From Patescibacteria group bacterium (lineage in GTDB: Bacteria > Patescibacteriota > Minisyncoccia > Phycocordibacterales > CSBR16-119), in NCBI GenBank assembly GCA_030917865.1, contig JAUPTX010000004.1, positions 1-57,130 on the forward strand: DNA of 57,130 nt, written 5' to 3'. Under the pieces are notes generated by a model, which worked only from the letters and a program-made list of their open reading frames with translations, searched no databases and had not been told where the DNA came from. Below are positions 29,357 through 54,731 of this stretch, in pieces. Both the position numbers and the translations under genes were made by a program. Position 1 is the first letter of the stretch. Each line of letters begins with the position of its first letter.

Positions 29357-29368
29357 AAAACTATTTTT

Positions 29369-29394
29369 CAAAAAACCTCGAAAGAGGTTTTTTG
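29369..29394 (+). terminator. Terminator of the ribosomal operon
   Basis: Perfect 11-bp stem CAAAAAACCTC/GAGGTTTTTTG with GAAA tetraloop (29369-29394). Confidence 0.9.
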
Positions 29395-29398
29395 ATTT

Positions 29399-29446
29399 CC
29401 CCTCATCTATGAGGAGGGGTGCCCGCAGGGCGGGGTGGTGTTGTAT
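29399..29446. repeat. GC-rich REP-like double hairpin
   Basis: Two adjacent hairpins, CCTCAT/ATGAGG and GCCC-GCA-GGGC, sit in a G-rich segment (GAGGGGTGCCC...GGGCGGGGTGG). The composition contrasts sharply with the AT-rich surroundings and recalls REP-like intergenic elements that I believe recur in CPR genomes. Only one copy was noticed in this window. Confidence 0.4.
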
Positions 29447-29461
29447 AAAAAATTATTATTT

Positions 29462-29488
29462 CCTACTTTTTCATTACCAAAAAGTAGG
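29462..29488. repeat. Perfect 10-bp inverted repeat
   Basis: CCTACTTTTT and AAAAAGTAGG flank CATTACC. It directly precedes the long palindrome at 29499-29656 and may belong to the same element. Confidence 0.6.
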
Positions 29489-29498
29489 CAAAAGGCTA

Positions 29499-29656
29499 GA
29501 CCCACACTTCACACCTAAAAACAATAGATTTTAAGCCAAGAAAATGATGAACTCGCTTAAAAAGAAGTGATTTGGCACTTCTTTTTAGGCTTCAAACAGC
29601 ATCAGTTTCTAAGGCAAAATACTATTGTTTTCTTAACGGTGTTCTAGTGTAGGGTC
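29499..29656. repeat. 158-bp imperfect palindrome
   Basis: The left arm starts GACCC (29499) and the right arm ends GGGTC (29656). The central 12-bp perfect stem is 29558-29569 with 29576-29587 (loop ATTTGG). Other matching blocks are AACAATAG with CTATTGTT, ACACC with GGTGT, and AAGCC with GGCTT. No ORF of note lies within. It could be a miniature mobile element, a long-hairpin RNA or a replication-linked structure. It fills most of the 413-base gap between rpsI and the next gene, and there is no direct evidence of target-site duplication. Confidence 0.6.
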
Positions 29657-29678
29657 GGAAGTGGTTACTTTACGATTC

Positions 29679-29706
29679 TTGACAAAGTGTGTGTATGTGA
29701 TATAAT
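29679..29706 (+). promoter_or_regulatory. Consensus sigma70 promoter
   Basis: TTGACA, 16-base spacer ending TGA, TATAAT: near-perfect consensus for the zinc-ribbon gene at 29769. Confidence 0.85.
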
Positions 29707-29768: not shown

Positions 29769-30095
29769 ATGAAAGCGGAACTTTTGTTCGTATGTAAGGA
29801 CGCGGCTGGTGGATGTGGGCACGTTGGCCCACGTACAAGTTGGATATCTGTGGGAGACACCCTTGAAATGTGTCCTGTGTGTCTCCAAGACCACGCCTTT
29901 GCTGTGGACTTGGAGAACGTACATCGCCTCAAAGAGTGGGGAATGGACCCTGAACCTGTCCGAGAGCTGTTGAAGATCGAAGAGGCCAAGGAGATCGATG
30001 AAACCCATGACGCGATTGATCGTCAGCGTCAAGCAAACGGACACAAAAGTGGTTACAGAAGTATTCAAGGAGGTGGCTATGACTACGAATTCTAG
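29769..30095 (+). CDS. Small putative zinc-ribbon protein, unknown
   Basis: A 108-residue protein with four metal-ligand-like Cys in the N-terminal third: one in FVCKDAAGGCGHVG (two Cys, with a nearby His) and a CPVC pair at EMCPVCLQ. The rest is a charged helix and a Gly/Tyr-rich tail. Codon choice is GC-richer than in the neighbours. It is a single-gene unit with a consensus promoter, a structured leader and a strong terminator. An RNA- or protein-binding ribbon is plausible; no family recognised. Confidence 0.6.
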   Translation: MKAELLFVCKDAAGGCGHVGPRTSWISVGDTLEMCPVCLQDHAFAVDLENVHRLKEWGMDPEPVRELLKIEEAKEIDETHDAIDRQRQANGHKSGYRSIQGGGYDYEF

Positions 30096-31847: not shown

Positions 31848-31876
31848 TTGACAAAACCTATATAATATGATATATT
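31848..31876 (+). promoter_or_regulatory. Consensus sigma70 promoter
   Basis: TTGACA, 17-base spacer ending TGA, TATATT. The sequence TATATTACAGAC around the start point is identical at 50260-50271, in front of another orphan gene. Confidence 0.85.
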
Positions 31877-31902
31877 ACAGACCAGGAAACCAAGTACAAA
31901 CC

Positions 31903-31918
31903 GCCGACGAAAGTTGGC
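31903..31918 (+). promoter_or_regulatory. 5'-UTR hairpin with GAAA tetraloop
   Basis: GCCGAC-GAAA-GTTGGC forms a 6-bp stem (one G-T pair) closed by a GNRA loop in the leader of the 31933 gene. Confidence 0.55.
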
Positions 31919-31932
31919 TTAAAACAAGAATA

Positions 31933-32475
31933 ATGGCAACCACTACCACACCAAAAGAGTTGAATCTCGTGGAGAGGTTCATGCAGAATAACCAATTCTG
32001 CAGCGAATCGTACCGGTTCGAAACATTCCTGACCGAGGTACTCATGGCTCAGTTCGACGAATTCGAAAAACTGGAGCGCGAGAAACTTCATAATAGGGAG
32101 ATACCGAAGATCATGCGTGAGATCAAAGGCGACATCGCCAAGGCAAAGATCGAACGTCGGCGTAAGATCACTAAGGAATTCAGCAGTCTTCATATCGCCT
32201 TCCACATCGAAGGTAATCCTGAGAAGTGGCCGATAGCTATATCAAAGGAAACCTTCCCGAGCATGTTCAAGACGCACTACCGTCCCGATCTCACTCACTA
32301 TTTTGACCGTCACGACTGGTTGAAAAATGTTGAAGCTTGGAGGCGAGTCGGTATCTGGCGACAGGTTATTGGAAGGCTCTTGAAGAAAAAGGGTCTCAAG
32401 CTGACTCTGGAGCGAGACTTCACCGGATCAGGTTGGGGAGGGGGTGGAACCTGTGTCTTGGTTATCAGTTGGTGA
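31933..32475 (+). CDS. Hypothetical protein, GC-rich orphan (180 aa)
   Basis: Starts MATTTTPKELNLVERFM. I chose ATG 31933 because the promoter predicts transcription from about 31883, which excludes the earlier in-frame ATG at 31867 that overlaps the -10 region. The N-terminal half is helical and strongly charged (QFDEFEKLEREKLHNREI), the second half contains several Trp, and the end is Gly-rich (FTGSGWGGGGTCVLVISW). No transmembrane segment, no recognised motif. Composition is near 48% GC by eye, well above the neighbours. Confidence 0.55.
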   Translation: MATTTTPKELNLVERFMQNNQFCSESYRFETFLTEVLMAQFDEFEKLEREKLHNREIPKIMREIKGDIAKAKIERRRKITKEFSSLHIAFHIEGNPEKWPIAISKETFPSMFKTHYRPDLTHYFDRHDWLKNVEAWRRVGIWRQVIGRLLKKKGLKLTLERDFTGSGWGGGGTCVLVISW

Positions 32476-42901: not shown

Positions 42902-43288
42902 ATGAAGAAGTTCCTTTCAATTTTCACCATCACCTTCGGGTTGGTGGCAGGTGTGAACGCGCAGTCGGAAACCCGGCCCCCTGATGGGTTTGGTCTTCCG
43001 GTGCCTGGATCCTCCGCAGAAGTATCTGCATGGGAGGAGGCGTGCAAGTTCAACACGGATGGTGAGACCTGCACGGTCACCATCCGTTACACCTCGGATA
43101 CTTATCCCTTGGAGTTTATCCAGGGTGACAAAGTGCTCGATGTTGTCTACGACAAGGACGCCGAAATCGGCTTCCAGGTCGTGGAAGGTGTGGTGTATGA
43201 GAAACTGCCTGGTGGCGGCTACTCGTACGTTCTGGAGATCAAGAATCCCCGGGGGCGCACCTATATCATGAAGAGGGTGGGCGCGTAG
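42902..43288 (+). CDS. Secreted protein, unknown (orphan)
   Basis: 128 residues beginning MKKFLSIFTITFGLVAGVNAQ, a Sec signal peptide with probable cleavage after NAQ. The mature domain is about 107 residues with two Cys (CKFNTDGETC) that could form a disulfide, and a beta-rich remainder. The composition is clearly GC-rich (well above 50% by eye), the most extreme in the window. Same style of signal peptide and unit as the gene before it, but no clear sequence similarity. Confidence 0.6.
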   Translation: MKKFLSIFTITFGLVAGVNAQSETRPPDGFGLPVPGSSAEVSAWEEACKFNTDGETCTVTIRYTSDTYPLEFIQGDKVLDVVYDKDAEIGFQVVEGVVYEKLPGGGYSYVLEIKNPRGRTYIMKRVGA

Positions 43289-45488: not shown

Positions 45489-45878
45489 ATGAGTAAAAAG
45501 ACAACCTTTCGCTCAATGGTCGCTAATGTGACACTCTCTCAATCTATGCATGGAGAAGAGGACGTCAAGTTTCCTGCGGACACTGATTCGGAAGACTCCC
45601 AAGAAGTTGAAGGGGGTGATGACGAAGGTGAAGACCTTGACCCTGTGTCAAAAGAGGTCGGACAGATCTTTGATGAGTGTGGGTTAAAAGCCTTACACTC
45701 AATTGTCTCGCGCTCTGAAATGGAAATGGCTGAACGCAGACCGCTATCTGGAGCTTACGATGATGAGTCTCCTTCTCCCAAGCCCGTAAAAAAGCATGTG
45801 CGCAATGTTCTCGGTGTGAAAGGCAAGAATGCCGGGATATCACTGCTTCCATTTCCACACAGGCCGCACGGTAAATAA
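45489..45878 (+). CDS. Acidic hypothetical protein (orphan)
   Basis: 129 residues. Residues about 23-52 are very acidic (EDVKFPADTDSEDSQEVEGG, then a run of Asp/Glu/Gly), followed by a short helical segment (VGQIFDECGLKALHSIVS) and a basic, Pro-rich end (PSPKPVKKHVRN). Mostly disordered by eye. No signal peptide or membrane segment. GC-richer codons than dnaB and trpS. Function unknown. Confidence 0.55.
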   Translation: MSKKTTFRSMVANVTLSQSMHGEEDVKFPADTDSEDSQEVEGGDDEGEDLDPVSKEVGQIFDECGLKALHSIVSRSEMEMAERRPLSGAYDDESPSPKPVKKHVRNVLGVKGKNAGISLLPFPHRPHGK

Positions 45879-50294: not shown

Positions 50295-50600
50295 ATGAAC
50301 TACAGCAACACCGCACACACTGGCTCTGAAAATCCGAAGAGTCTCGATCAGTTCGCCCTTTCTCCTGAATCCGGCGTAATGCCGATCCTTTCTGGGTCGA
50401 CGGCACTTGAAAAATTCAAGGCCTTACCCGAAACGGAAAGGTTCGGACGAATGTTTCAGGGAGCATTCTCTGGACCGGATGAGAAAGTTGAGCATTGGCT
50501 CAATACAACTCACGCGCAATGGCGCGTCACGCCCCGGGCGATGATACTGTGTGGTCGTATGAATGAGGTCTTGGACTTCATCCGAAGCGCCATCAAGTAG
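50295..50600 (+). CDS. Hypothetical protein (orphan, 101 aa)
   Basis: Starts MNYSNTAHTGSENPKSLDQF. Probably soluble; a C-terminal helical part (EHWLNTTHAQWRVTPRAMIL) is the only structured-looking stretch. ATG 50295 is chosen because the promoter starts transcription at about 50272, excluding the earlier in-frame start; the leader reads ACAAACCAAACCGACC. GC-richer than neighbours. No family recognised. Confidence 0.55.
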   Translation: MNYSNTAHTGSENPKSLDQFALSPESGVMPILSGSTALEKFKALPETERFGRMFQGAFSGPDEKVEHWLNTTHAQWRVTPRAMILCGRMNEVLDFIRSAIK

Positions 50601-54308: not shown

Positions 54309-54731
54309 ATGAAGGAAGTAAAAACGTACCTGGTCCGCTCTAACCAGCGGGAAGCTCTAAATGAGCTTATTTTCGGTCAGCATGGAATTTTCAAGCTGGC
54401 TGTGGATCTGAATGGTTCCACGAAGGAATATGAGTTCCGTCGCTGGAAGATGCCGATCAACCCATCTCAGCTGGACAAAAGCACTTTGACCATGTTGGTG
54501 TCACAGCTCGACATCGACCTGTTGCCCAAGTTCAACGTCTTTGAGTGGAACATCACTCTTGGTTGTGTTAATGGTAAGAATAGTGGTGATTGCTTTTCCT
54601 GCGCTCTTCTTACTTCAGGCGATAAACAGGCGTTCGTCTTGAGCTTGCCTGAAGGTGGAAGGTTCTATGAAGACGTCGTCCGACCTCTTCGAGCCATGAG
54701 CCCGAGTGCTTCAATGGTGGGGCAATCATGA
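54309..54731 (+). CDS. Hypothetical soluble protein (orphan, 140 aa)
   Basis: Starts MKEVKTYLVRSNQREALNEL. Mixed alpha/beta look with CVNGKNSGDCFSC holding three Cys in 12 residues, possibly a metal site. No signal peptide or membrane helix. GC-rich codons, own promoter, hairpin leader and terminator. Family not recognised. Confidence 0.55.
   Translation: MKEVKTYLVRSNQREALNELIFGQHGIFKLAVDLNGSTKEYEFRRWKMPINPSQLDKSTLTMLVSQLDIDLLPKFNVFEWNITLGCVNGKNSGDCFSCALLTSGDKQAFVLSLPEGGRFYEDVVRPLRAMSPSASMVGQS

Follow-up and report, generated by a model that had tools for sequence, protein, structure and literature searches.

What does a repeat unit of about 250 bp, made of three successive hairpins and located directly behind the rpsI gene of a small patescibacterial genome, represent? 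The locus belongs to a window of 57,130 nucleotides, i.e., the whole stretch of DNA that was analysed, which corresponds to contig C15 of a genome (G000) of 0.46 Mb that is 76% complete. A previous, sequence-only reading of the window had pointed out a GC-rich double hairpin qualified as REP-like, a perfect 10-bp inverted repeat and a 158-bp palindrome, and had suggested a miniature inverted-repeat element, a long-hairpin RNA or an integration hotspot as possible explanations. All three structures are present, together with the GACCC/GGGTC and inner arms and the perfect 12-bp centre attributed to the palindrome.

Architecture of the Repeat Unit

The repeat unit, the parts of which are read here on the + strand, lies directly downstream of the rpsI terminator (29368-29395). 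The GC-rich double hairpin (29399-29440) reads CCCCTC-ATCTAT-GAGGAGGGG-TGCCCGCAGGGC-GGGGTGGTG. It is followed by an AT-rich hairpin with perfect 10-bp arms, CCTACTTTTT (29462-29471) and AAAAAGTAGG (29479-29488), and by a linker containing a CAAAA box, CAAAAGGCTA (29489-29498). The long imperfect hairpin (29499-29656), which corresponds to the 158-bp palindrome with GACCC/GGGTC at its base, constitutes the core of the element and is conserved in structure. It contains the inner arm pair AACAATAG (29520-29527) and CTATTGTT (29622-29629), the two sides of an internal-loop or "rung" motif, CTAAA on the left (29515-29519) and TTCTTAACG on the right (29630-29638), and an apex module (29550-29598). 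The apex module consists of a left flank AACTCG (29550-29555), a variable terminal stem with perfect 12-bp arms, TAAAAAGAAGTG (29558-29569) and CACTTCTTTTTA (29576-29587), and a right flank TCAAACA (29592-29598); the complementary strand reads TGTTTGA..CGAGTT. The element has no coding capacity.

The fold of the locus is far beyond chance, both as DNA on either strand (z = -9.1 for the + strand and -8.4 for the - strand, against shuffles) and as RNA on the + strand (z = -9.8), and none of 200 shuffled sequences folds as well. The terminal hairpins of the window copy (29558-29587) and of loci L002, L003, L004, L005 and L006 resemble two 11-bp arms separated by a 6-nt spacer, e.g., AAAAAGAAGTG-TCTATA-CACTTCTTTTT. 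This 11-6-11 look recalls the core sites of tyrosine recombinases and should be taken as suggestive only.

Copies and Compensatory Changes within the Genome

About ten dispersed intergenic copies of the element were detected in G000 using blastn and a covariance model. They comprise seven full copies, distributed in C15, C13, C17 (two copies), C4, C5 and C11, and truncated copies at C13:52895, at the end of C9 and in C16. The earlier reading had envisaged, as the case against its interpretation, a single-copy structure with poorly conserved arms. The opposite was found, with several copies retrieved by blastn and two-sided (compensatory) changes in 26 of the 56 pairs of the seven full copies, as compared to a mean of 11.5 in shuffles, none of which reaches 26 in 500 trials. 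Paired cells amount to 97.1% across the same copies (shuffled mean 84.4%, slid controls ~50%). Measured from the AT-rich hairpin to the closing GGTC, full copies span 175-197 bp. All seven possess the AT-rich hairpin, with three covarying pairs, and a variable central stem framed by AACTC(G/A) and T(C/T)AAACA or near variants. Two types of outer arms, GACCCACACTTCACACC/GGTGTTCTCGTGTAGGGTC and GACCTAATTAAATATTGC/GCAATATTTAAAACGGTC, are variously joined to the inner modules, and nested composites, in which one element lies within the remnants of another, occur at C4 and C17. The element is real, multicopy, structurally conserved and non-autonomous.

The GC-rich module occurs in three copies in G000, each directly 5' of a palindrome copy and in the same orientation. 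Its layout, CCCCTC..GAGGAGGGG..GGGGTGGTG, corresponds to a C-strand, a purine strand and a third strand which mirrors the purine strand, TGCCCGCAGGGC forming a mini-hairpin. Triplex-compatible triplets reach 9/9 in the modules of C15 and C4, and 5/10 in the degenerate module of C17. With the BoxC/PIT intrastrand-triplex motif defined as in PMC4666352, the module fits this motif better than it fits a REP, judging from its sequence. The published TM-ECO consensus, CCCTCNCCCN3-6GGGNGAGGGN3GGGNGAGGG (Holder et al. 2015, PMC4666352), is not matched upon inspection, the second loop comprising 12 nt and the stems being different. The REP-like character assigned to this module by the earlier reading could not be retained: the GT[AG]G tetranucleotide is absent from the 5' foot of the hairpin, a GTGG being located 3' of it on the + strand and none on the - strand, and no Y1 gene was detected in G000 (76% complete).

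In G187, an element-rich Patescibacterium, a different GC-rich hairpin, CATTCCCGC..GCGGGAATCCAG, occupies the same place before most copies. The three-part layout is recurrent, and its first, GC-rich module seems exchangeable. In G187, G262, G317, G356 and G219, which belong to one family, the CATTCCCGC..GCGGGAATC hairpin is also a very abundant repeat in its own right, besides preceding most of the element copies.

A Long-Hairpin Family across Phyla

The apex obeys the pattern AACTCG..stem..TCAAACA, and its commonest form outside G000 is a 19-mer with a minimal stem, AACTCGCTTCGCTCAAACA. In one-genome-per-species data, the exact 19-mer occurs in at least 117 contigs, as compared to an estimated chance occurrence of ~2 in 257 Gb. 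Among the matches listed, the carriers belong to the Bacteroidota, the Lachnospiraceae and other Clostridia, Variovorax and other Burkholderiales, Desulfuromonadales-type bacteria, Pasteurellaceae and Patescibacteria. The 19-mer occupies the tip of a long hairpin in 81 of 100 non-redundant sites among these matches, against 25 of 117 segments taken at random. Strand-specific enrichment (17 vs 1 and 17 vs 0) was also noted for the internal loop, which carries GCTAAA in its left arm and TTnTTnACG in its right one. The AT-rich hairpin and its CAAAA box likewise occur upstream of many copies, the linker that holds this box being of a similar kind in many copies from other phyla. Sequence conservation hardly extends beyond the 19-mer: the arms vary freely provided that pairing is kept, and hairpins sharing the apex and the internal loop are otherwise unrelated between phyla. 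The tip of the apex varies at a single position, GCTNCGC, which corresponds to GC-GNA-GC on the complementary strand. GNA mini-hairpins in DNA, such as d(GCGAAGC), are exceptionally stable.

Some variations on this scheme deserve mention. In the L376 group, L388 and L129 (Pasteurellaceae-like), the orientation of the internal-loop motifs with respect to the apex is inverted, with CTTAACG on the left arm and CCTAAA on the right arm. In Variovorax, Xenophilus and relatives (L060, L062, L070, L072, L073, L130), long ORFs are mere translations of the element; they look alike between species and might be annotated as spurious conserved proteins.

No Rfam covariance model matches the window or 20 further loci at the gathering score, and no description of the element was found in the literature, searched by sequence and by concept with a thin coverage of subscription journals. 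The long-hairpin family is apparently undescribed, and in the literature searched only the GC-rich module was found to match something already described.

The Probable Folding Strand and the Neighbouring Genes

Selection acting on an RNA of the + strand is expected to leave more G.U than A.C among the stem mismatches, and selection on the other strand is expected to leave the reverse. Isolated mismatches, flanked by two Watson-Crick pairs on each side, were counted with one locus per similarity cluster and the loop motifs left out. After de-duplication, A.C mismatches number 34 against 7 G.U, or 18 against 0 when clusters are counted, and other settings agree. Because the isolated mismatches are A.C and not G.U, it is apparently the complementary strand that folds, being under pairing selection or at least most often exposed. 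This excess is a signal of the whole family, the seven copies of G000 being by themselves indecisive as to the strand; at the family level it disfavours the long-hairpin RNA of the + strand that the earlier reading had envisaged. It could also be mutational in origin, resulting from cytosine deamination on the exposed strand, and it fits single-stranded DNA and an RNA of the complementary strand alike, which it cannot separate.

The window copy is located downstream of rpsI and in sense relative to it. Over 66 loci with close genes, located outside one genome, there is no orientation preference relative to genes, 16 being tandem-sense and 21 tandem-antisense, and convergent loci (20) outnumber divergent ones (9). 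G187 contrasts with these 66 loci by a strong bias, 20 of 24 copies pointing in the direction of both neighbours and lying on the leading strand as judged by GC skew. Copies outside the Patescibacteria show no GC-skew bias, so that a replication-strand preference, which would have hinted at insertion into the lagging strand, was rejected.

A -35 box, TTGACA, occurs exactly 22 nt past the closing GGTC in four G000 copies (window 29657-29706; L002, L005, L009), and the gene behind this promoter is each time a GC-rich orphan ORF. About 35 such orphan ORFs, with a GC content of 0.44-0.61 compared to 0.31 for the genome and many of them of ~100-200 aa, are scattered in G000; they have no homologue in G001 and often lie behind strong TTGACA promoters. 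Those of the window are located at 29769-30095, 31867-32475, 42902-43288, 45489-45878, 50295-50600 and 54309-54731. The idea of a gene cassette associating the element, a promoter and an orphan GC-rich ORF (C15, C13, C5, C9, C4) is weakened because most of the ~35 ORFs have no element and the copies of G001 and G002 are devoid of the promoter.

Distribution and Probable Mobility

The model derived from G000 matches 4 of the 148 genomes of the order. At up to one mismatch, the 19-mer occurs in 14 of 380 genomes of the phylum, where it gives 21 hits and the reversed control 5, and in 8 of 384 genomes of the class. G187 contains ~29 copies, several of them 93-98% alike amid unrelated flanks. At a NIF3-like gene locus, the unit precedes the next gene in both G187 and G356, which belongs to another genus, whereas in G328, a congener of G187, the orthologous site is empty and the NIF3-like gene and the next gene stand ~3 bp apart. 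At the site of a C17 copy, the homologous genes of G001 are separated by 1 bp. Both empty sites are clean, their neighbours showing no apparent disturbance. We read the element as a discrete unit that would be gained and lost, some copies being presumably old because one orthologous copy persists across the two genera.

Near-identical copies at scattered positions, together with the nested copies and an empty site, speak for mobility, and movement of the element is what we infer from these genome comparisons. The miniature element proposed by the earlier reading is in keeping with the ~10 dispersed copies, the nested and truncated composites, the empty site and the non-coding character. Its assignment to classical MITEs goes beyond what was found, no autonomous partner and no target-site duplication having been identified at the copies, whose exact borders are not resolvable. 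As for the integration hotspot, only two nested cases (C4, C17) speak for it.

Candidate Recombinases

Around 117 copies among the matches listed, translations of the element itself are the only protein family that recurs within 2.5 kb. No Y1 transposase (PF01797) was detected in G000 (76% complete), G001 and G002; 9 of the 16 carrier genomes have none, several being near-complete, and the 117 loci from other phyla among the matches listed are likewise devoid of it. A RAYT acting in trans was rejected, Y1 being absent from many carriers and adjacent to no copy. Neither the bridge-RNA system of IS110/IS1111 (DEDD transposase PF01548 in 0 of 12 carrier genomes) nor an integron integrase (TIGR02249 above the cut-off in 0 of 25 carrier genomes) was retained, and a blastn comparison of the window copy with phages and plasmids gave no match.

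A gene for a Xer-type tyrosine recombinase lies within ~0.5 kb of a copy in 5 of 12 genomes (G000:C13:50747-52370; G002:C37; G187:C4:163458-164684; G080:C2:90779-91780; G262:C49), in three neighbourhoods characterized by rpsO, by a 512-aa predicted membrane protein and by a tRNA-nucleotidyltransferase-like gene. From rough gene counts, such an adjacency is expected in ~0.3 genomes over all 25 examined. It is a post hoc lead only, because none of the 13 further genomes displays it, and the housekeeping Xer may be regarded as a weak candidate for the mover. Two precedents are available: CTXphi relies on the dimer-resolution system of its host to integrate its single-stranded genome (PMC3089051), and the attC sites of integrons are recombined as folded bottom strands (PMC2727003).

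Eight filamentous-phage-like contigs from IMG/VR (L387, L401, L407, L413, L415, L419, L421, L439) carry the 19-mer, which is devoid of palindromic arms in the phage copies. The 19-mer coincides exactly with the left edge of a conserved intergenic block, beyond which the genes differ between contigs; this edge might be a site of cargo exchange.

Competing Explanations

The locus is probably a copy of a ~250-bp non-autonomous DNA repeat of a mobile type, which would spread as a folded single strand and be moved in trans. It is a multicopy unit located between genes, with a compensatory structure, apex and loop motifs recurring across phyla, and presence or absence at an orthologous site. The A.C mismatches, the lack of an orientation preference over the 66 loci and the excess of convergent over divergent loci are also in favour of this reading. 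The unit would associate an optional GC-rich hairpin, possibly triplex-forming, an AT-rich hairpin with its CAAAA box and the long imperfect hairpin, the conserved apex and internal loops of which would serve as recognition features. Recombination would take place when the complementary strand becomes single-stranded and folds, exposing the TGTTTGA-stem-CGAGTT apex, by means of a recombinase that the host or a passing element would provide in trans; a housekeeping Xer-type tyrosine recombinase is a candidate only. Which enzyme acts, and whether the molecule that folds is DNA or RNA, is likewise what we infer. Against a mobile element stand the lack of a linked gene and the copy kept across two genera, and the sense/leading-strand bias of G187 would also fit a role at the RNA level.

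The copy kept across two genera and the orientation bias of G187, together with the compensatory changes and the intergenic sites beside terminators and promoters, are accommodated by a host-useful structural DNA comparable to REP/BIME, in which hairpins kept as boundary elements between transcription units would spread slowly; proposed roles include the control of supercoiling, the binding of gyrase or nucleoid proteins, and a barrier to RNA or replication. We consider it rather unlikely, in view of its scattered occurrence, limited in the order to 4 of 148 genomes, of the clean empty sites with seemingly undisturbed neighbours, and of a sequence-specific apex which, conserved across phyla, exceeds the need of a generic barrier. 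A long structured RNA element of the complementary strand, with horizontally spread genes, would also account for the compensatory changes, and an excess of A.C over G.U on the + strand equals an excess of G.U over A.C on the complementary one. Such an RNA is improbable: it has no Rfam family and no recognised promoter on that strand, the recurrent promoter of G000 faces the other way, any base is tolerated in the GC-GNA-GC apex, as befits a DNA mini-hairpin, and the 66 loci show no preference relative to their neighbours. A long-hairpin RNA or 3'-UTR element of the + strand would agree with the sense position behind rpsI and with the 20 of 24 copies of G187 in sense to both neighbours; it is very improbable, the mismatch asymmetry favouring the other strand and tandem-sense loci (16) not outnumbering the tandem-antisense ones (21).

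Least credible of all, a satellite or relic of filamentous phages would derive the chromosomal hairpins from a phage intergenic signal with the same apex. The 19-mer at the border of the intergenic block of the eight phage-like contigs and the integration of CTXphi single-stranded DNA by the host (PMC3089051) are in its favour, but the phage copies are armless, the match is confined to one 19-mer, and no phage genes occur beside the chromosomal copies. A wider proposal, which takes up the preferred reading of a folded mobile repeat, would recognize a phylum-spanning class of single-stranded DNA hairpins, folded as bottom strands, recombined by the host Xer, sharing the 19-nt apex with filamentous phages, and belonging neither to the integron cassettes nor to the REPs or IS200/605. 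Taken as a whole, it is a quite unlikely conjunction.

Small palindromic repeats are usually species-specific, whereas a 19-nt tip is kept here from Patescibacteria to Variovorax and Parabacteroides, the arms being free to change if pairing is kept, apparently on a definite strand. If the folded single-strand substrate were confirmed, a sizeable class of intergenic DNA could be explained, spurious ORFs in many genomes and assembly-breaking repeats would be accounted for, and the existence in bacteria of an unrecognised user of DNA hairpins would be suggested.

Comparison with Known Systems

The element displays the full defining features of no known family among those tested; in its mode of working it most resembles a recombination substrate made of a folded strand. 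With BoxC/PIT (TM-ECO, PMC4666352) it shares the strand layout of the GC-rich module and a multicopy, intergenic distribution, but the second loop is a mini-hairpin of 12 nt instead of 3, and the module is only the first one of a longer unit, whereas BoxC has no long palindrome. REP/BIME sequences and their RAYT (TnpA-REP, Y1; PMC2817692, PMC3733652, PMC6006769) are likewise intergenic, multicopy, hairpin-forming and non-coding, and the same works report "atypical secondary structures" flanking the Bacteroidota subclass 2.6 and long TIRs flanking TIRYT genes. The element differs from them by its 158-bp hairpin, by the missing GT[AG]G 5' foot, and by many carriers without a Y1 gene and none beside the copies.

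The general features of MITEs, which are small, non-coding, interspersed, multicopy and palindromic, are all found in the element, which resembles ERIC, NEMIS, RUP and other bacterial MITEs by its size, palindromic character, interspersion and lack of coding capacity. In contrast to MITEs, no autonomous partner or target duplication was found, the apex and internal loops are conserved instead of terminal repeats, and the distribution extends across phyla. The integron attC sites (PMC2727003) offer a resemblance in the mode of working, with variable arms bearing conserved unpaired features, a variable terminal stem and a structure that may be read on the bottom strand; unlike them, the element has no RYYYAAC or GTTRRRY boxes (none on either strand of 29462-29670), no integron integrase and no cassette array. 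In the case of the CTXphi attP and other Xer-using elements (PMC3089051), the link to Xer is here limited to the suggestive 11-6-11 look and to genomic adjacency; these elements offer an example of single-stranded DNA serving as substrate for the housekeeping Xer, and the apex 19-mer of the element does occur in filamentous-phage-like genomes.
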